From positions 1 to 33,880 of IMG/VR virus record IMGVR_UViG_3300048804_000058: a DNA stretch of 33,880 bases. The stretch is one strand, 5' to 3'. A model generated the notes under the pieces. That model ran no database searches, was not told the origin of the DNA, and saw only the letters and a list, made by a program, of their open reading frames with translations. Source of the stretch: a virus. A program made the position numbers and the translations under genes. Below are positions 16,683 to 31,497 of this stretch, piece after piece (the first letter of the stretch is position 1; every line of letters starts with the position of its first letter).

Positions 16683-16683
16683 A

Positions 16684-16944: not shown

Positions 16945-16945
16945 T

Positions 16946-17170
16946 CTACTTCCTATTCAGATAAGCATTTATATTTTTCAATTCTGTTATTGCTTTTCTT
17001 GCTTCATACATTGAATTTATATATTCACTCTCTTTGCGATATTTGATATATTGAAATAATTTCTTCAATGTAAAAATAAAAAAACATATACCGATAATAA
17101 GATATATAATCCCCATTGTTTTTACAATTATGGGATTGGGATTAGTCAATTGTGGAATATTCGCTATCAT
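16946..17170 (-). CDS. Small membrane protein
   Basis: 74 aa with one clear transmembrane helix (IIVKTMGIIYLIIGICFFIF, about residues 14-33) followed by a charged helix. It lies between tRNA-Val(TAC) and 16684-16944, 9 nt after the encoded CCA; no strong ribosome binding site. No family recognised. Confidence 0.6.
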   Translation of the reverse strand: MIANIPQLTNPNPIIVKTMGIIYLIIGICFFIFTLKKLFQYIKYRKESEYINSMYEARKAITELKNINAYLNRK

Positions 17171-17178
17171 AAAATTTT

Positions 17179-17255
17179 TGGTACGGGATGGTGGATTTGA
17201 ACCACCTACCTTTCGGGTGTAGGCCGAATGTTCTTCCCAAGTGAACTAATCCCGC
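17179..17255 (-). tRNA. tRNA-Val(TAC), C33
   Basis: Acceptor GCGGGAT/ATCCCGT (G-T first pair), discriminator A, CCA encoded. Stem TTCGG/CCGAA with loop CCTACAC: anticodon TAC and C instead of the near-universal T at position 33. T arm GGTGG-TTCAAAT-CCACC. Confidence 0.85.
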
Positions 17256-17261
17256 ATTATT

Positions 17262-17783
17262 TTAATACAACCATTTTTCGTTTCTAAAATCACCATATTC
17301 TTGAACGGCACCATAAATATTTTGAACTATGTCTGTTCGATGAACCATTATTTTACAAGTGCCATAAAGCAATTTTCCTTTTTTCTTTTTCGAAGAAAAT
17401 TTAGAATACTTATTTATAATTGATTTTCTTAAACAACTTTTCGGCAAACACAAAGCATTACACCAATATGCTTCAATATCAGATATTGACATTCCGTTAT
17501 TATCATAAGCATTTATTTCTAATTTTATTTCTTCTATCCGAACATTATAACATTCCATCAAAAACTTCAGAAAAAATTTCAACATATTAACATCTGAATT
17601 TGTAAGTATGACGGAATTTTTCTTTTTAGAACCCTCACCCCAAAACAACATACATCCAGAAATATGTAACCAATTCAATTCCTTTGCTTTTTGTTTTCCC
17701 TTATTTTGGCACTCTTCTCTTAATTTTCTAAATTTATCTTGAGCGAATGTATTACCAAAATGTATTAAATTTTTGTTTACCAA
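17262..17783 (-). CDS. Possible LAGLIDADG-like / WGEGSK-domain protein
   Basis: 173 aa with a TTG start (17781-17783) after a GAG-rich stretch, overlapping the previous stop by 7 nt. The core LHISGCMLFWGEGSKKKNSV, then TNSDVNMLKFFLKFL, matches a widespread uncharacterised family whose (A/G)xxxWGEGS motif recalls degenerate LAGLIDADG helices. A homing-type endonuclease inserted in the tRNA block is possible but unproven. A TATAAATAAGTA sequence occurs inside the gene near 17409-17420 and may be chance. Confidence 0.6.
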   Translation of the reverse strand: MVNKNLIHFGNTFAQDKFRKLREECQNKGKQKAKELNWLHISGCMLFWGEGSKKKNSVILTNSDVNMLKFFLKFLMECYNVRIEEIKLEINAYDNNGMSISDIEAYWCNALCLPKSCLRKSIINKYSKFSSKKKKGKLLYGTCKIMVHRTDIVQNIYGAVQEYGDFRNEKWLY

Positions 17784-17968
17784 CTCTTTTTACTCCAAGA
17801 AATATTTCGTTCTGTCTTTCCTAACTTTCGGCCTTTTCGTAAACCCTTGGCCTCTGCTTCTTTCAGACAATACTGGCAGGGGTCAAGAAAATAAACACCA
17901 TTATCCACACCCGTTGCTGTTTTTGGTTTTCCCAAATCCCCGCTACATTTTGAACAAAAATAATTCAT
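17777..17968 (-). CDS. Zinc-binding C4 protein
   Basis: 63 aa from MNYFCSKCSG; AAGGA 7 nt upstream decides this start, since the longer frame reads back through tRNA-Val(GAC). The pattern YFCSKCSGDL ... GVYFLDPCQYCLKEAEAKG matches each of two repeats in the protein at 24156-24626 (YYCDKCNADL ... IAIKPCHACLEEANNAG). It is thus a single-copy version of that zinc finger. The basic C-terminus suggests nucleic-acid contact. Function unknown. Confidence 0.7.
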   Translation of the reverse strand: MNYFCSKCSGDLGKPKTATGVDNGVYFLDPCQYCLKEAEAKGLRKGRKLGKTERNISWSKKSW

Positions 17969-17985
17969 TTTACTTTCCTTTCTTT

Positions 17986-18061
17986 TGGTGCGGAATGTTG
18001 GTTTCGATCCAACTACCTTTGCCGTGTCAGGACAACGCTCTCCCAATTGAGCTAATCCCGC
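17986..18061 (-). tRNA. tRNA-Val(GAC)
   Basis: Acceptor GCGGGAT/ATTCCGC, discriminator A, CCA encoded. Stem TTGTC/GGCAA, loop CTGACAC, anticodon GAC. Complements tRNA-Val(TAC). Confidence 0.9.
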
Positions 18062-18062
18062 A

Positions 18063-18527
18063 TTATTCTATTTTGAACAAATCCTTTGGAAAAAAAGCAG
18101 GACGAATTACTGTAAACCCTCGCGCTATCAGTTTATCATATTGTTCATCGGTCACTTCATGGTCAATATAACCATACTCATCAATATTTTCCATCATTAT
18201 TTTTGCTTCATAAAGACCATTATTAAAAACTTCTCGTAAATCCTTTACGGCAGCAATTCTCAATTCAATTTTTTTTGAAATTCTGCTTTTGGCTGAAGGC
18301 AAATAAAATGAATTATCCTCTTCATCTATAATTTTGAACCCAACATAAATTAAATCATTTTTTTGAATATCGGTCAATTCAGAAACAAAATAACCATTGT
18401 CTCTTATGCTTTCTGCCATTTCTTTTGCTTCTTTCAAACCAACAAAAAGAATAGAACGAATTTCCTTTATGATTGTAATAAATCTTTGGGAAACATAATC
18501 ATGGTCTTTTGAGATTTTATAGTTCAT
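18063..18527 (-). CDS. Tandem ribosomal L7/L12 C-terminal-domain-like protein
   Basis: 154 aa made of two repeats: about residues 15-67 (RFITIIKEIRSILFVGLKEAKEMAES, then TDIQKNDLIYVGFKII) and 88-141 (LRIAAVKDLREVFNNGLYEAKIMMEN, then TDEQYDKLIARGFTVI). Each matches the bL12 C-terminal domain pattern (K-I-x-V-I-K-x-x-R-x..G-L-x-EAK, then a G-x-x-V/I end). In ribosomes this domain recruits EF-Tu, EF-G, IF2 and RF3. There is no N-terminal dimerisation domain to bind L10, so it would not simply replace host L12. It has its own consensus promoter. A role in binding translation factors is inferred. Confidence 0.75.
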   Translation of the reverse strand: MNYKISKDHDYVSQRFITIIKEIRSILFVGLKEAKEMAESIRDNGYFVSELTDIQKNDLIYVGFKIIDEEDNSFYLPSAKSRISKKIELRIAAVKDLREVFNNGLYEAKIMMENIDEYGYIDHEVTDEQYDKLIARGFTVIRPAFFPKDLFKIE

Positions 18528-18533
18528 ATTATA

Positions 18534-18562
18534 ATTATATCAGAGTTTTCAATATATGTCAA
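18534..18562 (-). promoter_or_regulatory. Consensus sigma70 promoter for L12-like gene
   Basis: Perfect TTGACA (18557-18562), 17-bp spacer, perfect TATAAT (18534-18539); the -10 lies 7 nt before the ATG at 18527, giving a near-leaderless transcript. Confidence 0.85.
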
Positions 18563-18594
18563 GAAAAAAGTTTTACATATATATCAATAAGTTA

Positions 18595-18684
18595 TGGCGG
18601 AGAGAATGGGATTTGAACCCATGGGAGCATGGTGACTCCACCTGCTTTCCAGACAGGCACCTTAAACCACTCGGCCATCTCTCC
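18595..18684 (-). tRNA. tRNA-Ser(GGA)
   Basis: Acceptor GGAGAGA/TCTCTCC, discriminator G, CCA encoded. Loop CTGGAAA, anticodon GGA, with the long variable arm typical of serine tRNAs. The stop of 18662-18901 lies inside its D loop. Confidence 0.9.
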
Positions 18685-18901
18685 GAATTTGGTCAATAAC
18701 TTTCACTTCATCTATCCAACACGCATCAGAGTATATTGATTTATGAGAACCATTATGCTCTATAATGTATTGATGATTATCGAGTAATTTTTTGGCATCA
18801 TACGTAAAGGCAACTACATGATCTGGATAATCAGAAAATCTAGCAATGTATGTATTGTTTTCTCTGGTCGATAATATATCTATTTTTATTTTATCCATCA
18901 T
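18662..18901 (-). CDS. Small hypothetical protein ending inside tRNA-Ser
   Basis: 79 aa, starting MMDKIKIDILSTREN. The last eight codons and the TAA lie within the tRNA-Ser(GGA) gene (23-nt overlap), so the same RNA must serve as message or tRNA. The start is 8 nt after the CCA of tRNA-Ser(GCT), with a weak AAAAGA site. No family recognised. Confidence 0.6.
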   Translation of the reverse strand: MMDKIKIDILSTRENNTYIARFSDYPDHVVAFTYDAKKLLDNHQYIIEHNGSHKSIYSDACWIDEVKVIDQIRRDGRVV

Positions 18902-18908
18902 AATCTTT

Positions 18909-18996
18909 TGGAGGAAGGGACAGGATTCGAACCTGCGGGGCTTTTACACCCAAAAGTTTAGCAAACTTTCATCATAAACCACTCGATCACCCTTCC
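18909..18996 (-). tRNA. tRNA-Ser(GCT)
   Basis: Acceptor GGAAGGG/CCCTTCC, discriminator T, CCA encoded. Stem AAAGT/ACTTT, loop TTGCTAA, anticodon GCT, long variable arm. Discriminator T is unusual for serine, where G is usual. Confidence 0.9.
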
Positions 18997-19002
18997 GAAT
19001 TT

Positions 19003-19079
19003 TGGAGGCGGCAGAGAGACTCGAACCCCCGCATTTTCTGTTTTGCAGACAGACGCATTACCATCTTTGCTATGCCGCC
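19003..19079 (-). tRNA. tRNA-Cys(GCA)
   Basis: Acceptor GGCGGCA/TGCCGCC, discriminator T, CCA encoded. Stem TCTGT/ACAGA, loop CTGCAAA, anticodon GCA. Overlaps the stop of 19070-19369 by 10 nt. Confidence 0.9.
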
Positions 19080-19369
19080 TTAATCTTTTTCCATCCTTTC
19101 TTACCTATGACAAACCCAGTTTCTCGCAACCATTTTTCCCAATAGTTTTTCACAAAATCCCAATCTTCAACTTCAGAACTTGTGAAACCAAGAAATTCAT
19201 TTTTGGATTCATCCCAAGAAGCATCATGAACACCATATGTTTCTTCCAACCAAGTCATATCAGATTCAGAAACTATATCTAGGAAATCCTGAAAATCCAT
19301 CGAACAACTAACAAGAGGAAGACGATATGTTATTTCCTCGTTTTCATCGTGAAGCACAAAATACTTCAT
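19070..19369 (-). CDS. Hypothetical acidic protein
   Basis: 99 aa starting MKYFVLHDENEEITYRLP, Glu/Asp/Trp-rich (DFVKNYWEKWLRETGFV), with AAAGGAAA before the ATG. The final codons AAG-GCG-GCA-TAG run into the 5-prime end of tRNA-Cys. Overlaps the DUF4326 gene start region by 4 nt. No family recognised. Confidence 0.65.
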   Translation of the reverse strand: MKYFVLHDENEEITYRLPLVSCSMDFQDFLDIVSESDMTWLEETYGVHDASWDESKNEFLGFTSSEVEDWDFVKNYWEKWLRETGFVIGKKGWKKIKAA

Positions 19370-19635
19370 ACAATTTCCTTTCCTATATAATCCGCCAATA
19401 ATGCTAATATGTCACCATGGCATCCTTTGGGTTTACACCAGCACCCCAAAGTTTTATCTTTCAATTCATGTAAATCAGCAAGAAGTTTTTCATTCTTCAT
19501 TATCCATACTTGATATTTCTGTAATACCTTCTCCCTGTTGCCGTCTTTGCCTATAGCAAATGGATTGCCCCATTTACTGGGCCTTCCGATATATACATCA
19601 TATGCTTCTTTTTTACAATGAACTACTTTTGTCAT
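19366..19635 (-). CDS. DUF4326-family protein
   Basis: 89 aa from ATG at 19635 (MTKVVHCKKEAYD); a TTG at 19659 would add eight residues. The motifs VYIGRPSKWGNPF, a middle REKVLQKYQVWI helix and LGCWCKPKGCHGDIL are those of DUF4326, a family common in phages. The conserved Cys/His (C-W-C ... C-H-G-D) suggest metal binding. Function unknown. The start lies within the end of the zinc-ribbon gene 19613-19816. Confidence 0.85.
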   Translation of the reverse strand: MTKVVHCKKEAYDVYIGRPSKWGNPFAIGKDGNREKVLQKYQVWIMKNEKLLADLHELKDKTLGCWCKPKGCHGDILALLADYIGKEIV

Positions 19636-19816
19636 TTTTTCTCTTATTGTATATATCAATATTGCTTTCTAATACTTCACAATCGAGACTTTCATTTGGG
19701 TTGCACAAACTGCAAAGAACCGATGGATACCTTCTTATAATTCCTTTCCTACATATATGGCAGAGAATTAATTTATCTCTCTTCTTAAATAAATGTCGAT
19801 TATCAATTGCTTCCAT
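19613..19816 (-). CDS. Small zinc-ribbon protein
   Basis: 67 aa. C-x2-C (CHIC) and C-x2-C (CSLC) 16 residues apart form a zinc ribbon; the C-terminus is Lys/Ser/Asn-rich. The start is 7 nt downstream of the encoded CCA of tRNA-Gly(TCC), with AGG between as ribosome binding site. Function unknown. Confidence 0.65.
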   Translation of the reverse strand: MEAIDNRHLFKKRDKLILCHICRKGIIRRYPSVLCSLCNPNESLDCEVLESNIDIYNKRKNDKSSSL

Positions 19817-19823
19817 AATACCT

Positions 19824-19901
19824 TGGAGCGGGTGGAGGGACTCGAACCCTCACTAAAAGGGTGGAAGCCTTTCGTGCTGTTCCGTTAAACACTACACCCG
19901 C
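19824..19901 (-). tRNA. tRNA-Gly(TCC)
   Basis: Acceptor GCGGGTG/CACCCGC, discriminator T, CCA encoded. Stem AAAGG/CCTTT, loop CTTCCAC, anticodon TCC. Overlaps the C-terminal codons of 19885-20265. Confidence 0.9.
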
Positions 19902-20265
19902 TTATATCAAACATCTCATTAGGAAGTTCAATAAGCACCTTCAAATCATACGGTGATATATACCACTTGCCAACAAGATAATCCGCATACTTTACTATTT
20001 TTAACTGATGATAAATTTTTGTATAAGATTCATCAATCGTCCTGTATTCAATGTAATATACCGTTTTGGAAATCACCTTATATTTTTTATTCAATGGTAT
20101 ATATATATTTGCCTTTACTATTTGATCGTCATTAAATTCTACATATGGGCCGCGCTTACCAACAACAAGACGATCATAGCCTTTGCAAACAAGCATATCT
20201 GATTTTGTATGGAAAAGAAGGTCTTCATTCTTCTTTATGTATTTCAAATAATTAACAAGTTCCAT
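19885..20265 (-). CDS. Conserved phage hypothetical protein
   Basis: 126 aa. The phrases MLVCKGYDRLVVGKRGPYVEF and QLKIVKYADYLVGKWYISPYDLK belong to a family I have seen in phages and bacteria without known function. Beta-rich. Its last codons extend 17 nt into tRNA-Gly(TCC). It directly follows 20266-20637 (the ATG abuts that stop). Role unknown. Confidence 0.65.
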   Translation of the reverse strand: MELVNYLKYIKKNEDLLFHTKSDMLVCKGYDRLVVGKRGPYVEFNDDQIVKANIYIPLNKKYKVISKTVYYIEYRTIDESYTKIYHQLKIVKYADYLVGKWYISPYDLKVLIELPNEMFDISGCSV

Positions 20266-20637
20266 TTACCACCATAAAGTCTGAAACCATTCTCCGAATA
20301 ATTTACATCCCCTTTGAACTCTCTTATGATTTACATCAGGGCCATACCATTTATCATCATCCGAAGAAATTTCCATAGCATAAATCATATCATCAAGAAT
20401 TTTATGCCATTTCTTTCTTCCAGCATCCCAATCTTCATTTGTAACAGAAGGAGAAAAACATCCAGGAACACCAGGAGAAATTTCTCTATATTTTTTCAAT
20501 CTTGGTAGAGTAAATTTGGCTACATACAAAAATAAACACCAAGTTTCGCGTTCATCAAATCCCCATTCTTTTCTTTGCTTCGCCCATTCAAAGCGGCGGT
20601 CATCGGAGTGACTTTTCTTACCTAATTTTCTGTTCAT
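20266..20637 (-). CDS. Conserved phage hypothetical protein
   Basis: 123 aa from MNRKLGKKSH; a GTG two codons earlier is also open. GGGTGA lies just upstream. It contains RRFEWAKQRKEWGFDERETWCL, then LPRLKKYRE and a WDAGRKKWHKILDDMIYAME helix, a pattern frequent in T4-like phages (GFDxRxTWxL ... LPRLKxF). Trp-rich. Function unknown. Confidence 0.7.
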   Translation of the reverse strand: MNRKLGKKSHSDDRRFEWAKQRKEWGFDERETWCLFLYVAKFTLPRLKKYREISPGVPGCFSPSVTNEDWDAGRKKWHKILDDMIYAMEISSDDDKWYGPDVNHKRVQRGCKLFGEWFQTLWW

Positions 20638-20779
20638 ATTCACCCAACTTACAATTTTTACTTGAACATATAGTCTTGAATTTCAAGCAGTAAAACGGTT
20701 TCAATTCACCAACAAACATTCTATCTTTTGGATTACACAAATTAACCATCTTTTCCCTGAATGTAATTCTCTTTTTCAT
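20618..20779 (-). CDS. Small Cys-containing protein
   Basis: 53 aa, starting MKKRITFREKMVNLCNPKD and containing FYCLKFKTICSSKNCK. AAAAAGGTGAAT precedes the ATG and tRNA-Trp lies just upstream. It overlaps the start of 20266-20637 by 20 nt. Four Cys could bind a metal. Too short for family assignment; accepted on its ribosome binding site and spacing. Confidence 0.5.
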   Translation of the reverse strand: MKKRITFREKMVNLCNPKDRMFVGELKPFYCLKFKTICSSKNCKLGEYEQKIR

Positions 20780-20790
20780 ATTCACCTTTT

Positions 20791-20868
20791 TGGCAGGAGC
20801 AGTAGGGATTCGAACCCTAATCTTTCGGTTTTGGAGACCGATATTTTTCCAATTAAACTACTCTCCCG
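20791..20868 (-). tRNA. tRNA-Trp(CCA)
   Basis: Stem TCGGT/ACCGA, loop CTCCAAA, anticodon CCA. GCCA at the 3-prime end as in E. coli tRNA-Trp. The acceptor stem is irregular: GGGAGAG against TGCTCCT or CTGCTCC leaves mismatches or needs an 8-bp stem with a C-G closing pair. Confidence 0.8.
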
Positions 20869-20872
20869 TATT

Positions 20873-20949
20873 TGGTTGCGAGTGACAGGTTCGAACTGTC
20901 GTATAACATGGTTATGAGCCATGCGCCTTACCATCTTGGCGAACTCGCA
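20873..20949 (-). tRNA. tRNA-Met(CAT), elongator-like
   Basis: Acceptor TGCGAGT/ACTCGCA, discriminator A, CCA encoded. Stem CATGG/CCATG, loop CTCATAA. Could instead be tRNA-Ile(CAT) read after lysidine modification; fully paired acceptor argues against an initiator. Confidence 0.85.
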
Positions 20950-20957
20950 ATAAATTT

Positions 20958-21045
20958 TGGAGGAAGGAGTGGGATTCGAACCCACGGAACTTTTACATCC
21001 ATTAGTTTTCAAGACTAACACCTTAAGCCACTCGGCCACCCTTCC
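20958..21045 (-). tRNA. tRNA-Ser(TGA)
   Basis: Acceptor GGAAGGG/TCCTTCC, discriminator T, CCA encoded. Stem TTAGT/ACTAA, loop CTTGAAA, anticodon TGA, long variable arm. Confidence 0.9.
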
Positions 21046-21052
21046 TTAATTC

Positions 21053-21131
21053 TGGTAGCGGAGGTGAGATTTGAACTCACGTAGAATTGGTTATGAGCCA
21101 ATGCTGGGGGCCAACTCCAGTCTACTCCGCA
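21053..21131 (-). tRNA. Second tRNA(CAT): initiator- or Ile2-like
   Basis: Stem ATTGG/CCAAT, loop CTCATAA. Acceptor TGCGGAG/CTCCGCT has a T-T mismatch at 1-72; an unpaired 1-72 is the hallmark of bacterial initiator tRNA, but the three G-C pairs of initiator anticodon stems are absent. CCA encoded. The TAG of 21122-21451 lies at positions 8-10. Confidence 0.75.
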
Positions 21132-21451
21132 TCAATTTCTTTCTTGTGTTTTTTATACCACGATTTGTAAGGTTCTTCTTTTAATCTGCTTTTGCTTTCC
21201 TCATATTCATTCCAATGCCTTACAACCGTTTTTTCTATCTCTTCATGAAGTGCTTCAAGTAATGATACACACCACCAATCATCTAAACCATCAATAATTT
21301 CCTTTGCTGTTTTATTAAAATCAGGAAAGCCTTCACCTTCATCATCTGAAGCCATAGCAATCAGATCAAAATCTTTTGTGTTTTCATATATGAACATTCC
21401 CAATATTCTTTGGGGATGTAACTGAATAAAATGTTTACTTACTTTTTTCAT
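21122..21451 (-). CDS. Hypothetical protein ending inside tRNA(CAT)
   Basis: 109 aa, starting MKKVSKHFIQLHPQRILGMF, helical and charged at the C-terminus (KSWYKKHKKEIDAE). AAGGAA directly after the CCA of tRNA-Ile(TAT) serves as ribosome binding site. The last codons and TAG overlap the next tRNA by 10 nt. No family recognised. Confidence 0.65.
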   Translation of the reverse strand: MKKVSKHFIQLHPQRILGMFIYENTKDFDLIAMASDDEGEGFPDFNKTAKEIIDGLDDWWCVSLLEALHEEIEKTVVRHWNEYEESKSRLKEEPYKSWYKKHKKEIDAE

Positions 21452-21461
21452 AAAATTCCTT

Positions 21462-21537
21462 TGGTAGCCCCACCAGGATTCGAACCTGGGTCTATCGGTT
21501 ATAAGCCGATTGCGCTACTCGATTGTGCTATGGGGCC
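21462..21537 (-). tRNA. tRNA-Ile(TAT)
   Basis: Acceptor GGCCCCA/TGGGGCT, discriminator A, CCA encoded then AAGGAA. Stem ATCGG/CCGAT, loop CTTATAA, anticodon TAT for the rare AUA codon. Confidence 0.9.
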
Positions 21538-21538
21538 A

Positions 21539-21856
21539 TTATTTTTTCTGTCTTGCCAATTCCTTCTTTGTTTTTTTCTCCCACGGTGCTTTTGTCTGTA
21601 AAGAGCGAATCAACCGATCATTCGGTTGCGGTTCATCATCTTCCATATGAGGGCATTCAGGATTGCTATTCATTCCTTGACATTGCCCCATACAAGTTTC
21701 TGGTTTGCATTTTTCTTTTTTTGCTTCTTCTTCCAGAAATTCCTTCAACATTTTAGAAAATTTAGAAAATTCTTTGGAATGAACCAATGGATGTTTTTTT
21801 CCAGAATGAAGTTTCTTCAAAAAATTTTCGGCATCCTTACCATGCAATGTTGTCAT
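21539..21856 (-). CDS. Hypothetical Lys-rich protein with Cys cluster
   Basis: 105 aa. N-terminal helical region rich in Lys (FLKKLHSGKKHPLVHS, then MLKEFLEEEAKKEK), then CKPETCMGQCQGMNSNPEC, a cluster of four Cys that may bind metal, then a basic tail. AAGGAAAA after the CCA of tRNA-Thr(CGT) is the ribosome binding site. The stop is 1 nt from tRNA-Ile. No family recognised. Confidence 0.65.
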   Translation of the reverse strand: MTTLHGKDAENFLKKLHSGKKHPLVHSKEFSKFSKMLKEFLEEEAKKEKCKPETCMGQCQGMNSNPECPHMEDDEPQPNDRLIRSLQTKAPWEKKTKKELARQKK

Positions 21857-21866
21857 ATATTTTCCT

Positions 21867-21941
21867 TGGAGCCACCGAAGAGATTCGAACTCTCATGAAT
21901 TGGGTACGGACCAATCATTCTTCCTGTTGAATTACAGTGGC
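21867..21941 (-). tRNA. tRNA-Thr(CGT), C33
   Basis: Acceptor GCCACTG/CGGTGGC, discriminator T, CCA encoded. Stem ATTGG/CCAAT, loop TCCGTAC: anticodon CGT with C33. Its first 27 nt are also the end of the GGQ protein gene. Confidence 0.8.
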
Positions 21942-22295
21942 GTGTGTCCATTTTCCTTCTTGTTTTGTTTCTACTTTTATATATTTATCGTTTACCCATT
22001 TTTCAACTTCTGCAAGTAATTCTTTTTCTGTTTTATGAGTTGATAAATATTTTGATGCTTCCAATTTCAGCCACTTTTTGAATTTATCGGTATCAACCAA
22101 TCGTCTGAATGCATTCTTTCTATTTTGAAGTTGACTTCTCTCTTCTCTGCTTTCTCCTATTGCACCAGATTTTTCGTGAATTATTCTTACTCCACTTTCC
22201 ACCTTATTCTGGTTCTGCCCACCTTTGCCACCAGATCGAAAAGTTTGAATTTCAAAATCTTTTTTGGTTACAGAGAATAACAATTCTTTTTTCAT
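21915..22295 (-). CDS. GGQ-domain release-factor-like protein
   Basis: 126 aa from MKKELLFSVTKKDFEIQ; a longer open frame runs back through tRNA-Leu(CAA) and is rejected. Residues 19-40 (FRSGGKGGQNQNKVESGVRI) carry the GGQ peptidyl-tRNA hydrolysis motif (25-27) with the flanks of the RF-1 domain family, and GESREERSQLQNRKNAFRRL follows as in class I release factors. No codon-recognition domain is present, so it resembles ArfB-type rescue factors or RF-H-like proteins. The last residues and TGA lie in tRNA-Thr(CGT). The start follows the CCA of tRNA-Leu with no clear ribosome binding site. Confidence 0.85.
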   Translation of the reverse strand: MKKELLFSVTKKDFEIQTFRSGGKGGQNQNKVESGVRIIHEKSGAIGESREERSQLQNRKNAFRRLVDTDKFKKWLKLEASKYLSTHKTEKELLAEVEKWVNDKYIKVETKQEGKWTHATVIQQEE

Positions 22296-22303
22296 AATAT
22301 TTT

Positions 22304-22381
22304 TGGTGCGCCTGGGGGGATTCGAACCCCCAAAATCACGGGTTTGAGCCGTGCACCTATACCTGATTCGATCACAGGCGC
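22304..22381 (-). tRNA. tRNA with Leu(CAA) anticodon, short variable arm
   Basis: Acceptor GCGCCTG/CAGGCGC, discriminator A, CCA encoded. Stem CACGG/CCGTG, loop CTCAAAC, anticodon CAA. Variable region is only ATTTT, whereas bacterial leucine tRNAs have a long arm; the D stem is also short. Amino-acid identity is therefore uncertain. Confidence 0.8.
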
Positions 22382-22384
22382 ATA

Positions 22385-22585
22385 TTACCAACTATTCAAT
22401 TCAATTTCTGTGCGGTTGTTACATTTCGGGCATACGAAATTTACCTTAACCTCACCATGATTACCACATCTATCACAATCCTGGCTCATTCCTTGCCAGT
22501 GAAGATCATTCTTTTTTACTGCAACATTCTTGTTACAGTGCCCACAAAAAAATAAAAGATGTTTTAGTATACCTACATATCTCAT
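22385..22585 (-). CDS. Zinc-ribbon protein
   Basis: 66 aa from MRYVGILKHLLFF; AAGGAAAATGTT follows the CCA of tRNA-Leu(TAA) and sets the start. Three C-x2-C knuckles (CGHC, CDRC, CPKC) plus one further region could hold two zinc ions. Small multi-knuckle proteins of this kind are common in T4-like phages. Function unknown. Confidence 0.7.
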   Translation of the reverse strand: MRYVGILKHLLFFCGHCNKNVAVKKNDLHWQGMSQDCDRCGNHGEVKVNFVCPKCNNRTEIELNSW

Positions 22586-22597
22586 AACATTTTCCTT

Positions 22598-22674
22598 TGG
22601 TGCGAATGAAGGGATTCGAACCCTCACTTTACAGGGTTTAAGCCTGTTGACTCTACCAGTTGGCCCACATTCGC
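22598..22674 (-). tRNA. tRNA with Leu(TAA) anticodon, short variable arm
   Basis: Acceptor GCGAATG/CATTCGC, discriminator A, CCA encoded then AAAGGAA. Stem ACAGG/CCTGT, loop CTTAAAC, anticodon TAA. Variable region AAAGT (5 nt). The first 51 nt are also the end of the phosphatase reading frame. Confidence 0.8.
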
Positions 22675-23106
22675 ATTATCAACTTTCTTCAATGTAGAAT
22701 AAACCAGTTTATTGTATAACCTATAAGTAGCAAACCAAAATTTGATTTCCATTTTGTTTACTCTTACATTATATTTTTCTCCTATGAAAAATGCAACTCC
22801 TGCTGATCTTGAAATTCCTGCTGCGCAATGAACATATATTGTATTTACTCGATCATCCAGGTTGTGCAAAAAATGCACTATCTGCTTTGCATGATCCACA
22901 TTGAATATAGTATATTCAGTTACCAAATCAGGATGAGCATCAATATGCCTCTGATCTATATCGTGAAACCGCAATCTCAAGATTCTATTTCCCCAATCAG
23001 GCAAATCAACATCAGAGTTTTCGGAGATAGAAATCATAGCGGTGTCTTTTCTTACAACCGCCTTCTTCGCCATTTCCTCACCGAAGAAATATACTTGCTT
23101 GATCAT
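22624..23106 (-). CDS. Protein phosphatase, dual-specificity/PTP type
   Basis: 160 aa. The signature H93-C94-x5-R100-S (VHCAAGISRSAGVAFF) is the catalytic loop of Cys-based phosphatases, with an upstream IFNVDHAKQIVHFLH helix as in this family. No obvious general-acid loop can be pinned, though FHDIDQRHID is a candidate. Substrate may be phosphoprotein or RNA 5-prime phosphate. A second start (MAKKAV, after GGTGAGGAA) is possible. The last 17 residues (from DNANVGQ) are read through tRNA-Leu(TAA), so the natural end may once have been earlier. Driven by a consensus promoter at 23137-23165. Confidence 0.85.
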   Translation of the reverse strand: MIKQVYFFGEEMAKKAVVRKDTAMISISENSDVDLPDWGNRILRLRFHDIDQRHIDAHPDLVTEYTIFNVDHAKQIVHFLHNLDDRVNTIYVHCAAGISRSAGVAFFIGEKYNVRVNKMEIKFWFATYRLYNKLVYSTLKKVDNANVGQLVESTGLNPVK

Positions 23107-23125
23107 TTGATTCTCGTTTCCCTTA

Positions 23126-23183
23126 TTTCAGTCTTTATTATATCAAAAATCTGAAGACATGTCAAGAAAAATCTTTCATAATA
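23126..23183 (-). repeat. 58-bp promoter repeat, copy 1
   Basis: 56 of 58 bases match the copy at 28057-28114, including both promoter boxes, spacer ends and upstream A/T tract. Confidence 0.9.
23137..23165 (-). promoter_or_regulatory. Consensus sigma70 promoter (copy 1 of a duplicated promoter)
   Basis: Perfect TTGACA (23160-23165), 17-bp spacer, TATAAT (23137-23142). The surrounding 58 bp (23126-23183) recur with two mismatches at 28057-28114. An A/T-rich stretch before -35 may act as an UP element. Reads towards the phosphatase and on into the tRNA block. Confidence 0.9.
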
Positions 23184-23220
23184 ATGTCAACATCTTATAA
23201 CAAAAACCCCTTTTGGTTTA

Positions 23221-23295
23221 TGGTGGAGGAAGACGGATTCGAACCGCCCTCTCAACCTCTTCAGGGTCGCGCTAATCCTAATCAGCTATTCCTCC
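23221..23295 (-). tRNA. tRNA-Phe(GAA)
   Basis: Acceptor GGAGGAA/TTCCTCC, discriminator A, CCA encoded. Stem CGACC/GGTTG, loop CTGAAGA, anticodon GAA. Confidence 0.9.
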
Positions 23296-23304
23296 ACAAT
23301 TCCT

Positions 23305-23383
23305 TGGGGTGAGAGATGGGATTCGAACCCACGATATGCACGGGCCACAACCGTGCGCCTTCGACCGCTTGGCTACTCTCACC
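23305..23383 (-). tRNA. tRNA-His(GTG)
   Basis: Stem CACGG/CCGTG, loop TTGTGGC, anticodon GTG. The 8-bp acceptor GGTGAGAG/CTCTCACC includes the G-1:C73 pair needed by histidyl-tRNA synthetase; CCA encoded. Confidence 0.9.
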
Positions 23384-23388
23384 ATAAA

Positions 23389-23898
23389 CTATTTTTTTAT
23401 CAACTCGCAAATTTCATCCAATGATACTGGATAAAAATTCCAAACATCCACCCCTACATTGACTGCGTTTTGCACCATCTTGAATAAATCATGAATATGG
23501 GCGCATAAAAATATTTTTGTTCTATCCAGGCAACTTGCAGCAGGATCATGAACCAAAACAAAATCGCCTTTGAATGTATTTATTTCCAATGCTGTATGCA
23601 CAGTACGAAATCCCATATTTACATAGGTGAAAGGTTTGAGGGCATCGTGATTGCCCAAAATCAATATTTTGGTCCCATTCATTTTGCTGATATATCTTTC
23701 AATATCGTGGTCTCTTTTGCTGAGGGAAATATCACCAACAATATAAATGGTATCTTCCTTTTTTACCCGTTCATTATGCCTTCTGACAATCTCACGATTC
23801 ATTTCGTGTATATCTTTGAACGGCCGGTTACAGTAGTGGATTATTCCACCCCTTTCGTTCATATGATCAAAATGATAATCTGCTGAGAAATAATACAT
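23389..23898 (-). CDS. Calcineurin-like metallophosphoesterase
   Basis: 169 aa. The metal-binding motifs appear in order: D7-x-H9 (YFSADYHFDH), G55-D56, G-N-H-D (82-85), a later LVHDP, and A-H-I-H (133-136). Short phage enzymes of this layout hydrolyse phosphodiesters, often 2,3-cyclic phosphates or small molecules; the substrate cannot be read here. A tRNA-block location makes RNA-end processing an attractive but unproven idea. 11 nt upstream is the CCA of tRNA-Arg(ACG). Confidence 0.9.
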   Translation of the reverse strand: MYYFSADYHFDHMNERGGIIHYCNRPFKDIHEMNREIVRRHNERVKKEDTIYIVGDISLSKRDHDIERYISKMNGTKILILGNHDALKPFTYVNMGFRTVHTALEINTFKGDFVLVHDPAASCLDRTKIFLCAHIHDLFKMVQNAVNVGVDVWNFYPVSLDEICELIKK

Positions 23899-23909
23899 AT
23901 AAACCTTTC

Positions 23910-23986
23910 TGGCACCCCTGGCAGGATTCGAACCCGCAATGCTTCGTCCGTAGCGAAGTGTGATAATTCCGTTTCACTACAGGGGC
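23910..23986 (-). tRNA. tRNA-Arg(ACG)
   Basis: Acceptor GCCCCTG/CAGGGGT, discriminator G, CCA encoded. Stem CTTCG/CGAAG, loop CTACGGA, anticodon ACG. Overlaps the end of 23977-24159. Confidence 0.9.
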
Positions 23987-24159
23987 AATCTTTTCATTCC
24001 AAGATCATCCATAACCCAAAACCAAATTTCAGGTTCTTTATAGGCATATTCTGAAAAATATTCTTCTGGCTGTCTACCATAAATATTTACAAACATTTCT
24101 CTTTTATTTTGCCTATCTATTATGGTTATGCAATTTTCCCTGGATTTTATCCTTTTCAT
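23977..24159 (-). CDS. Small hypothetical protein
   Basis: 60 aa, starting MKRIKSRENCITIIDRQNK, then aromatic-rich YFSEYAYKEPEIWFWVMD. It is coupled to 24156-24626 by an ATGA overlap and its TAG is inside tRNA-Arg(ACG). No family recognised. Confidence 0.6.
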   Translation of the reverse strand: MKRIKSRENCITIIDRQNKREMFVNIYGRQPEEYFSEYAYKEPEIWFWVMDDLGMKRLPL

Positions 24160-24626
24160 TTTATAATCAAATCATCTTCAACAACATATCGTGGTGAAAG
24201 AGGATCGGTTTCTTCTTCTTTCTTTTTCTTATCGTCTTCTTCTTTCTCTTCCGAAGGATTATCAGGACTATCACCTTCTGCTGGCGTCATCCAATTATTA
24301 TCCGCTCCTTCCTGTGTTTCTGGTATCTCTTCTTCCTCTTCTTCTGTTTCTACAGTCTCACCATCTGCATCTATATCTTTCCCTTCTTTTCCTGCATTGT
24401 TTGCTTCTTCCAGACAAGCATGACACGGTTTTATTGCGATACCGCCATTTTCGCTCTCATCTACTTCCAAATCCGCATTGCATTTATCGCAATAATACAT
24501 CTTCTCTGTAGTGCATTCGGTGCATAAGTCAACCCAAATACACATATCACCCCCATTATCGGGTTTCATTTCAGCATCCAATGATGTTCCGCATTTATTA
24601 CAATACAACTCAAATTCCAAAGACAT
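24156..24626 (-). CDS. Double zinc-finger protein with acidic tail
   Basis: 156 aa. Two similar C4 units, YCNKCGTSLDAEM ... CTEC (residues 8-40) and YYCDKCNADLEVDE ... CHACLEEANNAG (44-80), match the single unit at 17777-17968. The remaining ~75 residues are strongly acidic (EEEEEEIPETQEGADNN, then EEKEEDDKKKKEEET). Acidic tails can mimic nucleic acid or bind basic proteins; that role is inferred. A TTTACA-N17-TATAAT promoter lies upstream. Confidence 0.7.
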   Translation of the reverse strand: MSLEFELYCNKCGTSLDAEMKPDNGGDMCIWVDLCTECTTEKMYYCDKCNADLEVDESENGGIAIKPCHACLEEANNAGKEGKDIDADGETVETEEEEEEIPETQEGADNNWMTPAEGDSPDNPSEEKEEDDKKKKEEETDPLSPRYVVEDDLIIK

Positions 24627-24661
24627 TTTGTATTCTCCTTTATATAGGATTTTCTATTTGT

Positions 24662-24690
24662 ATTATAACACAAATTGAACGAATTGTAAA
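24662..24690 (-). promoter_or_regulatory. Sigma70-type promoter
   Basis: TTTACA (24685-24690), 17-bp spacer, TATAAT (24662-24667), reading towards 24626. Confidence 0.75.
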
Positions 24691-24697
24691 TATAAAA

Positions 24698-24772
24698 TGG
24701 TGTCCCTGGAGGGAATCCAACCCTCATCAATTCTTTAGGGGAGAATTATCCTATGCGTTGAACGACAGGGGC
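24698..24772 (-). tRNA. tRNA-Arg(CCT), C33, degenerate
   Basis: Acceptor GCCCCTG/CAGGGAC with a C-A mismatch, discriminator A, CCA encoded. Stem ATTCT/AGAAT, loop CCCCTAA, anticodon CCT with C33. T loop TTGGATT deviates from TTCGAAT. May be decaying. Confidence 0.65.
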
Positions 24773-24779
24773 AAAAATA

Positions 24780-24855
24780 TGGTAGGGCCAGAAGGATTCG
24801 AACCTTCAAAAAAAGTTTAGAGGACTTTTGTGATAATCCATTTCACTATGGCCCC
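24780..24855 (-). tRNA. tRNA-Arg(TCT), C33
   Basis: Acceptor GGGGCCA/TGGCCCT, discriminator A, CCA encoded. Stem AAAGT/ACTTT, loop CCTCTAA, anticodon TCT with C33. Reads AGA/AGG codons. Confidence 0.85.
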
Positions 24856-24864
24856 AGAAATTTC

Positions 24865-24940
24865 TGGCTGAGAGGGGTGGGATCGAACCACCAACCTTTC
24901 GGGTCAAAGCCGAATGTCCTGCCAGTTGAACGACCTCTCA
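24865..24940 (-). tRNA. tRNA-Gln(TTG)
   Basis: Acceptor TGAGAGG/CCTCTCA, discriminator G, CCA encoded. Stem TTCGG/CCGAA, loop CTTTGAC, anticodon TTG. Confidence 0.9.
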
Positions 24941-24947
24941 ATAAATT

Positions 24948-25024
24948 TGGTAGCCATGGAGAGATTCGAACTCTCAAAAGACTGCTTCTAAGGCAGTTCC
25001 CTTTGCCAGTTAGGGTACACGGCC
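24948..25024 (-). tRNA. tRNA with Leu(TAG) anticodon, short variable arm
   Basis: Acceptor GGCCGTG/CATGGCT, discriminator A, CCA encoded. Stem ACTGC/GCAGT, loop CTTAGAA, anticodon TAG. Variable region CTTTT, short like the two other leucine-anticodon tRNAs here. Confidence 0.8.
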
Positions 25025-25031
25025 AAAACTT

Positions 25032-25292
25032 TTATATAAGTATTTTTATTTCAACTTTTTCCAAGCCGAAATATTCTTTGAACTCTTTCATAAAGGTTTT
25101 AAGATGAACATGAAGAAGTTCTTTTCCTTTCGGATCATGTTCAACATCAGGACACCATGGAAGAGAAATTTGAATATGCGGTTCTTCCATATCTATTGCC
25201 TTTTGTAATGCTTCCATTGCTTCCCGAATTTTTTCATCCTTTGACTTCTTCATCTTTTTCTTCGGAGTTTCTACTACCATTTTACCTATCAT
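25032..25292 (-). CDS. Hypothetical protein
   Basis: 86 aa. Lys-rich N-terminus (KKKMKKSKDEKIREAMEAL), then PHIQISLPWCPDVEHD and a helix (LKTFMKEFKEYFG). AAAGGAAAAT precedes the ATG. The sequence ends 7 nt before tRNA-Leu(TAG). No family recognised. Confidence 0.6.
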   Translation of the reverse strand: MIGKMVVETPKKKMKKSKDEKIREAMEALQKAIDMEEPHIQISLPWCPDVEHDPKGKELLHVHLKTFMKEFKEYFGLEKVEIKILI

Positions 25293-25304
25293 ACATTTTC
25301 CTTT

Positions 25305-25496
25305 CTATAATAGAACCAAACAGCCTTCAGGAAATATTACAGCCAAATGATTAGGAATTGGTTCATCAAGAAGAATTATATAAAAGTCAATAATATTTTC
25401 GGTTGCCTTTCCTAAATTCTTTCCTGTATGACCATCAATATCGGTTCCTGTATTTTTTATTTCAACCCTATCATTTACCTTCAAATTTAATTTCAT
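25305..25496 (-). CDS. Small SH3-like barrel protein
   Basis: 63 aa, almost all beta-strand: MKLNLKVNDRVEIKNTG, GHTGKNLGKATE, NIIDFYIILLDEP, AVIFPEGCLVLL. The pattern (x-GD/ND-x-V-x-I at the start, a Gly-rich turn, final strand) is that of an SH3-like barrel as in KOW-type or small phage proteins. AAGAG after the CCA of tRNA-Glu(CTC) is the ribosome binding site. Function unknown. Confidence 0.65.
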   Translation of the reverse strand: MKLNLKVNDRVEIKNTGTDIDGHTGKNLGKATENIIDFYIILLDEPIPNHLAVIFPEGCLVLL

Positions 25497-25507
25497 AATT
25501 TTCTCTT

Positions 25508-25581
25508 TGGTAGAGCATATCAGAATCGAACTGATGCTTTTCGGCTGAGAACCGAAGATTCTTCCATTAAACTAATGCTCC
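25508..25581 (-). tRNA. tRNA-Glu(CTC)
   Basis: Acceptor GGAGCAT/ATGCTCT, discriminator A, CCA encoded. Stem TTCGG/CCGAA, loop TTCTCAG, anticodon CTC. Confidence 0.85.
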
Positions 25582-25589
25582 AAAATTTT

Positions 25590-25667
25590 TGGTGGGACCA
25601 GCGGGAATCGAACCCACGTATTCACAGGTTAAAAGCCTGTTGCAATGCCAACATTTGCTATGATCCC
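25590..25667 (-). tRNA. tRNA-Lys(TTT)
   Basis: Acceptor GGGATCA/TGGTCCC, discriminator A, CCA encoded. Stem ACAGG/CCTGT, loop CTTTTAA, anticodon TTT. Confidence 0.9.
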
Positions 25668-25674
25668 AAAGGTG

Positions 25675-25774
25675 TTTCCATCTTGGATAGAGTACCCTAC
25701 GGTGTTAAGCCTGTGTTCAGCTAGGCCCCGATACTATCTCTATTACTCGGTACTGACATACCGCAAGATGGAAA
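25675..25774 (-). ncRNA. Structured ~100-nt RNA closed by 11-bp stem
   Basis: Ends pair perfectly (TTTCCATCTTG with CAAGATGGAAA). Just inside, on the transcribed strand, is a CGGTA-TGTCAG-TACCG hairpin, followed by further short complementary pieces (GCCT/AGGC). It has no T arm, anticodon arm or reading frame and fills the space between tRNA-Ile(GAT) and tRNA-Lys(TTT). Comparable small stable RNAs occur in the T4 tRNA operon. Function unknown. Confidence 0.65.
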
Positions 25775-25777
25775 TTT

Positions 25778-25852
25778 TGGTAGTCCCATCCAGATTTGAA
25801 CTGAAGTCCATCGCTCATCAGGCGATTGCACTCCCAATTGTGCTATGGGACC
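25778..25852 (-). tRNA. tRNA-Ile(GAT)
   Basis: Acceptor GGTCCCA/TGGGACT, discriminator A, CCA encoded. Stem ATCGC/GCGAT, loop CTGATGA, anticodon GAT. Confidence 0.9.
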
Positions 25853-25859
25853 AAATTTT

Positions 25860-25933
25860 TGGTAGCCCCAGTCGGATTTGAACCGGCGTTTCAAGATTGA
25901 AGGTCTTGCTACCTACCATTAGTAGATGGGGCC
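25860..25933 (-). tRNA. tRNA-Glu(TTC), C33
   Basis: Acceptor GGCCCCA/TGGGGCT, discriminator A, CCA encoded. Stem CAAGA/TCTTG, loop CCTTCAA, anticodon TTC with C33. Confidence 0.85.
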
Positions 25934-25942
25934 AAATATTTT

Positions 25943-26020
25943 TGGTCGGGGTGAAAGGAATTGAACCTTCATATACTCGGTCCCAGGCCGAGTGGGCTGC
26001 CAGTTTACCCGCACACCCCG
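25943..26020 (-). tRNA. tRNA-Pro(TGG), C33
   Basis: Acceptor CGGGGTG/CACCCCG, discriminator A, CCA encoded. Stem CTCGG/CCGAG, loop CCTGGGA, anticodon TGG with C33 where bacterial tRNA-Pro normally has T. Confidence 0.85.
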
Positions 26021-26027
26021 AAATTTT

Positions 26028-26312
26028 TTATCCTTCTATTGCTTTCCTAATCTCTCTATCGCATTTTGCAATAAATTCATTTGCAGATTTTTTAAAAGCA
26101 TCTTCCATCTGATCAATTATCTGTTGCTGTCTTTGGTATCCCTCCCAATATCCTTTAATATACTCTTTGGTAAAAACAGATTTACAATTCAGACAATGAA
26201 CCTTTTCTAATGATTCATGAATCTTACCATAAGAACCATAAGGTTCATGAATTTCTTCTAATGTTTTAGCGCAATTCGGGCATTGACTATAAATGCTATC
26301 TTCATCAATCAT
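26028..26312 (-). CDS. Zinc-ribbon protein with helical tail
   Basis: 94 aa. C-x2-C (CPNC) near residue 11 and C-x2-C (CLNC) near residue 40 form a ribbon; residues ~48-94 form a long helix (YWEGYQRQQQIIDQMEDAFK). Overlaps 26305-26493 by 8 nt and ends 7 nt before tRNA-Pro. The helix could be a dimerisation or partner-binding element. Function unknown. Confidence 0.7.
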   Translation of the reverse strand: MIDEDSIYSQCPNCAKTLEEIHEPYGSYGKIHESLEKVHCLNCKSVFTKEYIKGYWEGYQRQQQIIDQMEDAFKKSANEFIAKCDREIRKAIEG

Positions 26313-26493
26313 CTTTATTTTCCTTTATTTCACCACACTCTTCCAAAATGCGAAAACTATCCATCCAAACAGTATCAATCAATCTCATTGCTGTTACCAT
26401 ATCTTTGACACCACTGATAGTATTAGGGTTTGCTGTTATCGTACAAATATGATGAATATGTCTTATCAATTCTGCTTTTGTTGGTTTTCTCAT
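26305..26493 (-). CDS. Small helical protein
   Basis: 62 aa, starting MRKPTKAELIRHIHHICTIT, with AAGGGTGT as ribosome binding site. The first gene after tRNA-Asp. Mostly helical; no motif recognised. Confidence 0.6.
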   Translation of the reverse strand: MRKPTKAELIRHIHHICTITANPNTISGVKDMVTAMRLIDTVWMDSFRILEECGEIKENKDD

Positions 26494-26526
26494 TTTACAC
26501 CCTTTCTCATCAATCTTATTTCTTTA

Positions 26527-26602
26527 TGGCGATGCCAACGGGATTCGAACCCGCATCTTCTTCCGTGACAGGGAAGTATTTTTCCGGTTAAACTATAGCA
26601 CC
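26527..26602 (-). tRNA. tRNA-Asp(GTC)
   Basis: Acceptor GGTGCTA/TGGCATC (one G-T and one T-G pair), discriminator G, CCA encoded. Stem CTTCC/GGAAG, loop CTGTCAC, anticodon GTC. Confidence 0.9.
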
Positions 26603-26639
26603 ATTATCTTTTAAGAAATTTTAACATCGGTTTCCTTTC

Positions 26640-26714
26640 TGGTGGAGGCGGAGGGATTTGAACCCTCAAAAATGCGGTGCAAGCGCATTATGATCCCAGT
26701 TTCATCACGCCCCC
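26640..26714 (-). tRNA. tRNA-Ala(TGC)
   Basis: Acceptor GGGGGCG/CGCCTCC, discriminator A, CCA encoded. Stem ATGCG/CGCAT, loop CTTGCAC, anticodon TGC. Confidence 0.9.
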
Positions 26715-26726
26715 AAATTCAATTTT

Positions 26727-26791
26727 ATTTGAGAGTTGTCTGTCTCTCTATGGACTTTGAGCACATCTCATATTCTGAGCAACCCTCAAAT
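26727..26791 (-). ncRNA. Structured 65-nt RNA closed by 12-bp stem
   Basis: ATTTGAGGGTTG pairs with CAACTCTCAAAT (11 Watson-Crick pairs and one G-U). Immediately inside is a CTCA-GAATA-TGAG hairpin, the same arrangement as in the RNA at 25675-25774. No tRNA arms and no reading frame. Located between tRNA-Tyr and tRNA-Ala. Confidence 0.6.
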
Positions 26792-26801
26792 TTTTCATAT
26801 C

Positions 26802-26885
26802 TGGTGAGGAAGAGAGGAATCGAACCTCTATGCTTTCGCAAGTGGGTTACGGCCACTGGGACTCACCACGCTGTCCGACTTCCCC
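26802..26885 (-). tRNA. tRNA-Tyr(GTA), C33
   Basis: Acceptor GGGGAAG/CTTCCTC, discriminator A, CCA encoded. Stem AGTGG/CCACT, loop CCGTAAC, anticodon GTA with C33. Long variable arm TGC-GAAA-GCA, as in bacterial tRNA-Tyr. Confidence 0.85.
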
Positions 26886-26893
26886 AAAATTTT

Positions 26894-26967
26894 TGGCTCC
26901 GATGGAGGGACTCGAACCCCCAAAAATTGGTTAACAGCCAATCGTGATGCCATTTCACTACATCGGA
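26894..26967 (-). tRNA. tRNA-Asn(GTT)
   Basis: Acceptor TCCGATG/CATCGGA, discriminator G, CCA encoded. Stem ATTGG/CCAAT, loop CTGTTAA, anticodon GTT. Confidence 0.9.
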
Positions 26968-26977
26968 AAAAATGTTG

Positions 26978-27097: not shown

Positions 27098-27101
27098 CTC
27101 T

Positions 27102-27176
27102 TGGAGCCGATGGAGGGAATCGAACCCCCAACTTACTGCTTACAAGACAGTTGTTCTTCCGTTGAACTACATCGGC
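27102..27176 (-). tRNA. tRNA-Thr(TGT)
   Basis: Acceptor GCCGATG/CATCGGC, discriminator T, CCA encoded. Stem ACTGT/GCAGT, loop CTTGTAA, anticodon TGT. Confidence 0.9.
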
Positions 27177-31491: not shown

Positions 31492-31497
31492 TTATCG

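Follow-up and report, generated by a model that had tools for sequence, protein, structure and literature searches.

Cytosine at position 33 in seven tRNAs of a T4-like phage and its possible explanations

Introduction

U33, located just 5' of the anticodon, is nearly universal in tRNAs; it is treated as invariant and contributes to tRNA recognition. Unusual anticodon loops have nevertheless been described in several systems. A natural C33 occurs in tRNA-Cys(GCA) of Sulfolobales (PMC7668247), and for mycobacteriophage C1 mutations in the anticodon loops of the tRNAs were proposed as a means of escape from anticodon nucleases (van den Berg et al. 2023, PMC10264068), in a paper whose main text names neither U33 nor C33. 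Phage tRNAs have been found to rescue T5-like phages from the defence systems PARIS, retron-Eco7 and PrrC170 (PMC12409363, PMC11555353). Dense clusters of supernumerary tRNAs also make up the mobile tRNA array units of Mycobacterium plasmids, described in passages that do not mention C33 (PMC12803027). A search of the open-licence literature yielded no description of C33 recurring among the tRNAs of phages. Here, a phage tRNA array is analysed for which seven C33 tRNAs had been claimed from the sequence, with the suggestion that they might be an anti-nuclease adaptation.

Results

The window, i.e., the whole stretch of DNA analysed, comprises 33,880 nt of a T4-like phage and contains about 36 well-formed tRNA genes. 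The main array (16606..27176, minus strand) holds 32 standard tRNAs with small ORFs interleaved, and tRNA-Gly-GCC and tRNA-Gln-CTG lie beyond it at 31417-31571. A gene for an RF-1 domain protein is located inside the array (21915..22391, minus strand; Pfam PF00472, E=8.7e-20). A sigma-70 promoter is predicted upstream of the array (28068..28096, minus strand; TTGACA, a spacer of 17, and TATAAT with TG before the -10); two further 12/12 consensus sites (23165-23137 and 18562-18534) and an 11/12 site (24690-24662) are present on the same strand, all four being consensus matches only. Genes for RtcB, an RNA ligase and a CCA-adding enzyme are also encoded by the phage. When the host was sought through the phage polymerase in GTDB genomes, no match was obtained.

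The seven tRNAs of the original prediction, all encoded on the minus strand, are exactly those to which ARAGORN assigned C33. Six of them combine C32 with C33: Val(UAC) (17179-17255, loop CCTACAC, 59.2 bits against Rfam RF00005), Arg(CCU) (24698-24772, CCCCTAA, 42.4 bits), Arg(UCU) (24780-24855, CCTCTAA, 62.1 bits), Glu(UUC) (25860-25933, CCTTCAA, 53.3 bits), Pro(UGG) (25943-26020, CCTGGGA, 31.3 bits) and Tyr(GUA) (26802-26885, CCGTAAC, 43.8 bits). In Thr(CGU) (21867-21941, TCCGTAC, 52.9 bits) C33 follows U32. The tRNA-Glu gene was missed at the default ARAGORN threshold and was recovered by RF00005 and by ARAGORN with -ps90. The 29-bit gathering score of RF00005 was passed by all seven, with Pro the lowest. 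Since every one has a 7-nt anticodon loop on a 5-bp stem, the register of position 33 is unambiguous. Apart from U33 itself, the features of elongator tRNAs (cloverleaf, 7-nt anticodon loop and T-arm) are present in all seven. The least canonical is Arg(CCU), in which G56 replaces C56 and the D loop lacks GG. Neither A33 nor G33 was found among the approximately 36 tRNAs of the window, and the remaining standard tRNAs all have U33.

The same phage is represented by the contig G001 (IMGVR_UViG_3300046710_000261, 155,948 bp); its alignment with the window spans 33,840 bp and has three mismatches, none of them within a tRNA. G001 carries the identical seven C33, and a base-calling error is therefore unlikely. 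Among five related phages with tRNA arrays, three have C33, partly in other isoacceptors, and two have none. Orthologous tRNAs of the relatives differ at position 33 in both directions. Glu(UUC) also has C33 in the relatives G002 and G018; Pro(UGG) has C33 in G003 and G018 but U33 in G002, where the tRNA is 86% identical; and Tyr(GUA) has U33 in the G002 tRNA, which is 79% identical to that of the window.

When window, viral and chromosomal tRNAs were scored by one pipeline, C33 was found in 48 of 1438 viral tRNAs (3.3%) of an unselected sample and in none of 133 bacterial chromosomal tRNAs, controls that may not be those of the host. With 7 of 36 (19%), the window had about six times the viral rate (p=2.5e-4) and departed clearly from the usual cellular anticodon loop (p=1e-5 against these same, perhaps non-host, chromosomal controls). 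The C33 rate varied strongly among contigs (p=2e-4), and no C33 was present in the T5 and T4 tRNAs examined. Within the array, C33 occurred in 5 of 14 tRNAs of the promoter-proximal segment and in 2 of 20 elsewhere, a difference that was not significant (p=0.10). The counts of the Pro-UGG pattern (C33 in 22 viral contigs and U33 in 17, with 6 matches in 84,980 GTDB genomes) were not used as an enrichment figure because bacteria seldom have this arm, whichever base it carries. Several GTDB contigs found by Pro C33 are dense tRNA arrays with many C33 tRNAs, these contigs having been selected for C33.

The departures from U33 were strongly restricted in kind. After quality filtering, 42 C and 4 purines were found at position 33 in the viral sample, compared with 13 C and 59 purines at U8 (p=7e-16). 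One could suppose that U33 is regained in the mature tRNA through C-to-U editing, which would leave the genomic C neutral, and the almost exclusive replacement by C, the base that deamination converts to U, would be consistent with it. However, neither G001 (156 kb) nor G003 (189 kb), which have C33 tRNAs, yielded a PF00383 deaminase at E<=1; one was present in G018, in a search that covered this family only, in phage contigs. We know of no C-to-U editing at position 33 in bacterial tRNAs, and consider editing very improbable.

Several invariant positions were lost from viral tRNAs (U8 8.7%, T54 3.9%, T55 3.2%, A58 3.2%, U33 3.9%), with almost no loss in the chromosomal controls. In the window, by comparison, U8, T55 and A58 were each lost in 0 of 34 tRNAs, T54 and C56 in 1 of 34 each, and U33 in 7 of 34, while R57 was intact in all 34; the loss of U33 relative to the other invariants thus differed from that in viruses at large (p=1e-4). 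Because the departures are almost all to C and the other invariants are kept in the window, general decay is not the cause of C33. The broken stems and lost invariants of pseudo-tRNAs were not seen in the window tRNAs. The view that C33 tRNAs are decaying or non-functional draws on the G56 of Arg(CCU) and on the unselected sample, where U8 was also lost in 7 of 40 C33 tRNAs versus 65 of 1109 others (p=0.01). Against it, stems and CCA encoding match those of U33 tRNAs (1.1 versus 1.5 stem imperfections, p=0.36, and 1.5 versus 1.3 in a second comparison), and decay would be expected to leave purines at position 33 as well. In the first pool U8 was lost in 0 of 57 C33 tRNAs; this absence was reversed in the unselected sample, and no claim is based on it. 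Decay is accordingly given only a slight probability.

C33 was unevenly distributed among isoacceptors within contigs (p=0.0015). The first pool, from which the group of Lys, Leu, Trp, Phe, His and Cys was chosen, had C33 in 2 of 141 tRNAs of this group and the second pool in 3 of 387 (p=9e-4), so that the near-absence was replicated. No C33 was found in 78 viral tRNA-Lys sampled, nor in 52 viral tRNA-Tyr of the unselected sample, although the Tyr tRNA of the window has it. Glu-UUC and Ile-GAU were among the commoner C33 tRNAs in the viral samples. A depletion of GUN/ACG anticodons that looked significant in the first pool was not replicated in the larger unselected sample.

The pattern could also reflect an adjustment of decoding, in which C33 loosens the anticodon loop and a codon box is read differently, e.g., with wider wobble. 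The enrichment of C33 among tRNAs of four-codon boxes in the first pool (p=0.0015 within contigs) and among C36 tRNAs in the unselected sample (7.7% versus about 2%) would agree with this. However, the four-box enrichment was not replicated in the unselected sample (22/549 versus 26/889, p=0.29), and C33 was evenly spread over U34, C34 and G34 tRNAs, so it is not tied to a wobble U. An adjustment of decoding is therefore regarded as improbable.

Discussion

The reading favoured here, at about an even chance, is that C33 is tolerated in working tRNAs. U33 would have mutated repeatedly to C in tRNAs that most likely still work, purifying selection being weaker on phage tRNAs than on chromosomal ones. 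The anticodon-loop turn would still be demanded of position 33, with C as the substitute that passes, and C33 would persist mainly where the decoding of an isoacceptor tolerates it, and hardly at all in Lys, Leu, Trp, Phe, His and Cys tRNAs. The C33 tRNAs are probably charged and used, and tolerance rather than advantage has presumably fixed the change. At a rate of 3.3% in viral tRNAs generally, C33 is a minority feature that tolerance can explain. On the other hand, tRNA function suffers from changes of U33 in model systems: the phenotype of a U33C mutation in yeast tRNA-Gln was ascribed to poor decoding, while U33G gave none (PMC3664417). Moreover, the approximately six-fold excess in this phage is left over by a general tolerance and must have a further cause. 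Because the other invariants are nearly intact in the window and contigs differ strongly in their C33 rate, this cause should concern position 33 in particular, and only certain lineages.

Anti-nuclease selection, which the original prediction put forward, is one possible cause. With C33, the phage tRNA would be cut poorly by a host anticodon nuclease that reads U33, or acted on poorly by a U34-modifying enzyme that the nuclease needs, and would replace the cut host tRNA. Such a nuclease is possible since PrrC and RloC cut beside U33, so that the 5' fragment ends in this base (PMC2610378). Overexpressed RloC favours tRNA-Glu in E. coli (PMC2610378), and CDI toxins cut the anticodon loop of tRNA-Glu and cleave tRNA-Ile (PMC9424206, PMC9990079), Glu and Ile tRNAs being among the commoner carriers of C33. 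That modification of U34 can depend on U33 has a precedent in Elongator, whose tRNA-triggered activity is abolished by U33C (PMC11096365). The rescue of phages by their tRNAs, the RtcB, RNA ligase and CCA-adding enzyme encoded by this phage and the position-specific excess of C33 point in the same direction. However, C33 is absent from the sampled viral tRNA-Lys, which PrrC and PARIS AriB attack, and, outside the window, from the unselected tRNA-Tyr, the target of retron-Eco7; the AriB site is at 40-41 and not at 33 (PMC12409363). Furthermore, neither RtcB (2 of 14 C33 contigs versus 4 of 20 C33-free contigs) nor RNA ligase over the cut-off (5 of 14 versus 7 of 20) was enriched with C33. Protection from nucleases is thus only a tentative explanation and rather unlikely. 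It is unlikely, too, that C33 evolved as a position-specific trait which lets the tRNA arrays of some phages and mobile elements evade U33-reading factors of the host, either an anticodon nuclease or a U34-modifying enzyme, and which is gained and lost as hosts change.

Viral C33 occurs at a measurable rate, is nearly always C, avoids certain isoacceptors and is concentrated in some phages, and therefore offers natural, functional-looking variants of the U-turn. With such a set, the escape of phage tRNAs from U33-reading nucleases and the range of codons readable without U33 become testable. As the tRNA-Glu gene here illustrates, genes of this type can escape tRNA finders that are run at default settings.

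The phage shares a large tRNA set with unusual anticodon loops in several isoacceptors with mycobacteriophage C1, where the changes were matched to known VapC sensitivity determinants and host tRNAs (PMC10264068). As in T5-like phages, there is a tRNA array with strong promoters, which are predicted in the present case, and the supply of tRNAs may serve as a counter-defence; for T5-like phages the protection was shown by experiment (PMC12409363, PMC11555353). The dense clustering of tRNAs resembles that of the Mycobacterium plasmid units (PMC12803027). The natural C33 of Sulfolobales is confined to a single isoacceptor in cellular genomes (PMC7668247), whereas in the phages studied here it affects many isoacceptors and varies from phage to phage.

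Base 33 in the tRNA array

The 34 standard tRNA genes found in the window by ARAGORN and Rfam all lie on the minus strand, with 32 of the 34 falling within 16606-27176. With base 33, just 5' of the anticodon, read from the ARAGORN structure, C33 occurred in exactly the seven tRNAs named in the original prediction (Val-TAC, Thr-CGT, Arg-CCT, Arg-TCT, Glu-TTC, Pro-TGG and Tyr-GTA), and all others had U33. The anticodon loops were regular, with 7 nt on 5-bp stems, and the anticodon register is therefore certain. tRNA-Glu-TTC was missed by ARAGORN at its default threshold and matched the Rfam tRNA family RF00005 at 53 bits. Just past the main array lies a tRNA-like gene (27384-27455) that ARAGORN models with an anticodon loop of 6 nt and that scores 38 bits against RF00005.

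This 33.9-kb IMG/VR fragment is included in a longer contig of the same phage, G001 (155,948 bp), the two differing at 3 of 33,840 bp and never within a tRNA. G001 had the same seven C33 tRNAs, and its extra tRNAs, Thr-GGT and Ser-CGA, both had U33. The phage's DNA polymerase is distantly related to those of T4-like phages and cyanophages (~31% identity); a polymerase search of GTDB contigs found no relative.

C33 in chromosomes, viruses and related phages

Chromosomal tRNAs of four GTDB genomes, run through the same pipeline as a control, had U33 in 133 of 133 cases. In an unselected viral sample, collected with two T-arm patterns that left base 33 unspecified (1438 tRNAs, 189 viral contigs), this base was U in 1382, C in 48, A in 5 and G in 3. 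This C33 rate of 3.3% was above the chromosomal one (p=0.03, in statistics ignoring phylogeny), and viral rates may be underestimated, as ARAGORN might overlook C33 tRNAs more often than U33 ones. Higher still were the phage of the window (7/36, p=2.5e-4) and its relatives (9/101, p=0.01), and the rate varied strongly among contigs (p=2e-4). Related contigs are non-independent; near-identical tRNAs were merged in part of the statistics, and kinship was otherwise ignored. Several comparisons were run, and only those that replicated were relied on.

Since most invariant positions of viral tRNAs were lost at a few percent, a 3% loss at U33 is unremarkable by itself. Two specific features nevertheless speak against random decay. 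In the phage of the window, other invariants were nearly intact and U33 was lost in a fifth of tRNAs; losses of U33 against those of other invariants were 7:2, compared with 56:292 in viruses at large (p=1e-4). Viral departures at position 33 favored C over purines by 42:4, whereas those at U8 were mostly purines (13:59; p=7e-16). A mutational transition bias would be expected to affect U8 as well. C33 was usually accompanied by C32 (85% vs. 65%, p=0.003).

The relatives compared had 48-64% polymerase identity and tRNA arrays. C33 was present in Ile-GAT, Glu-TTC and Thr-TGT of G002, in Gly-GCC, Glu-TTC, Pro-TGG, Thr-CGT and Thr-TGT of G018, and in Pro-TGG of G003, as well as in its Ser-GCT, visible only under a laxer ARAGORN setting; G012 (24 tRNAs) and G013 (19 tRNAs) had none. 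Pro-TGG orthologues (86% identity) had C33 in the window and U33 in G002, while Thr-TGT orthologues (75% identity) had U33 in the window and C33 in G002. Orthologues differ in both directions, and C33 has therefore been gained and lost over time. Among the polymerase loci of relatives (L005, 9353-12991; L006, 9562-13138), that of G002 reads 1212 aa vs. 905 aa, with an intein-like insert, and that of G003 is interrupted by another ORF. A relative's 64-kb contig, G014, carries a lone CUA-anticodon, amber suppressor-like tRNA (L104, 36150-36400).

Ile-GAT with C33 was found in the isolated phages KVP40, Vibrio Pontus, Enterobacter CW742 and Caulobacter CcrBL10, and C33 in Pro and Ser tRNAs of Brevundimonas Bajun; tRNAs of T4, T5, Bellamy and Karp had none. 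Far more were seen in certain dense arrays of tRNA genes on GTDB contigs, e.g., in 11 of another 24 tRNAs on one contig from Acidobacteriaceae; such arrays had been chosen through Pro C33. Several to many C33 occurred in L153 (1399-4662), L148 (217-4820) and L151 (633-3092), from Acidobacteriaceae and two Chloroflexi. Six other viral contigs (L483, L369, L363, L408, L470 and L385), each carrying between three and six tRNAs with C33, are good candidates for further cases of lineage-specific C33. Among the open-licence papers searched, none described C33 as a recurrent feature of phage tRNAs.

Possible causes of C33

The simplest account is tolerance, to which we would give about an even chance. 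Weak selection would act on phage tRNAs, the loop turn at position 33 would still be needed, C would be the base that gets through, and isoacceptors unable to afford C33 would retain U33. Lys, Leu, Trp, Phe, His and Cys tRNAs were nearly without C33 in the first pool (2/141), from which this group was itself chosen, and the depletion was replicated in the independent unselected sample (3/387 vs. 42/1044, p=9e-4). By within-contig shuffling, the frequency of C33 differed among isoacceptors in each of the two samples (p=0.013 and p=0.0015). Four-codon-box and GUN/ACG patterns, seen first, failed to replicate in the unselected sample.

However, tolerance leaves the C33 excess in the phage of the window unexplained. 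Selection against anticodon nucleases, as originally proposed, would account for it, and cleavage by PrrC and RloC leaves U33 at the cleaved end, with RloC preferring tRNA-Glu (PMC2610378). CDI toxins cleave tRNA-Ile and cut tRNA-Glu within the anticodon loop (PMC9424206, PMC9990079), and the tRNA-triggered Elongator reaction is blocked by U33C (PMC11096365). Nevertheless, this explanation is possible but the less likely of the two: C33 never occurred in the viral Lys tRNAs sampled, none of 52 Tyr tRNAs had it in the unselected sample, and contigs with C33 did not carry RtcB or RNA ligase more often. G001 encodes both (38031-39281 and 84118-85110, respectively) and a CCA-adding enzyme (65291-66730). 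C-to-U editing that restores U33 is unlikely because no PF00383 deaminase was found in G001 or G003.

Surroundings of the array

The array lies downstream of predicted, near-perfect sigma-70 consensus promoters on its coding (minus) strand (28096-28068, 24690-24662, 23165-23137 and 18562-18534), three matching at 12/12 and one at 11/12, all with TG preceding the -10. The stretch at 24624-24705 is a repeat, of which G001 has another copy (95% identity) immediately 5' of its DNA polymerase gene. Within the array, an RF-1 domain gene (21915-22391, minus strand; PF00472, E=8.7e-20), perhaps encoding a ribosome-rescue factor, overlaps tRNA-Thr(CGU) at its 3' end. Three minus-strand stretches amid the tRNA genes (25668-25777, 26715-26801 and 26971-27098), each closed by inverted repeats, folded better than shuffles (z = -2.7, -2.4 and -2.2, respectively), and the third contains the T-arm-like GGGTTCAATTCCC. 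They had no Rfam matches and could perhaps be small stable RNAs resembling those of the T4 tRNA cluster.
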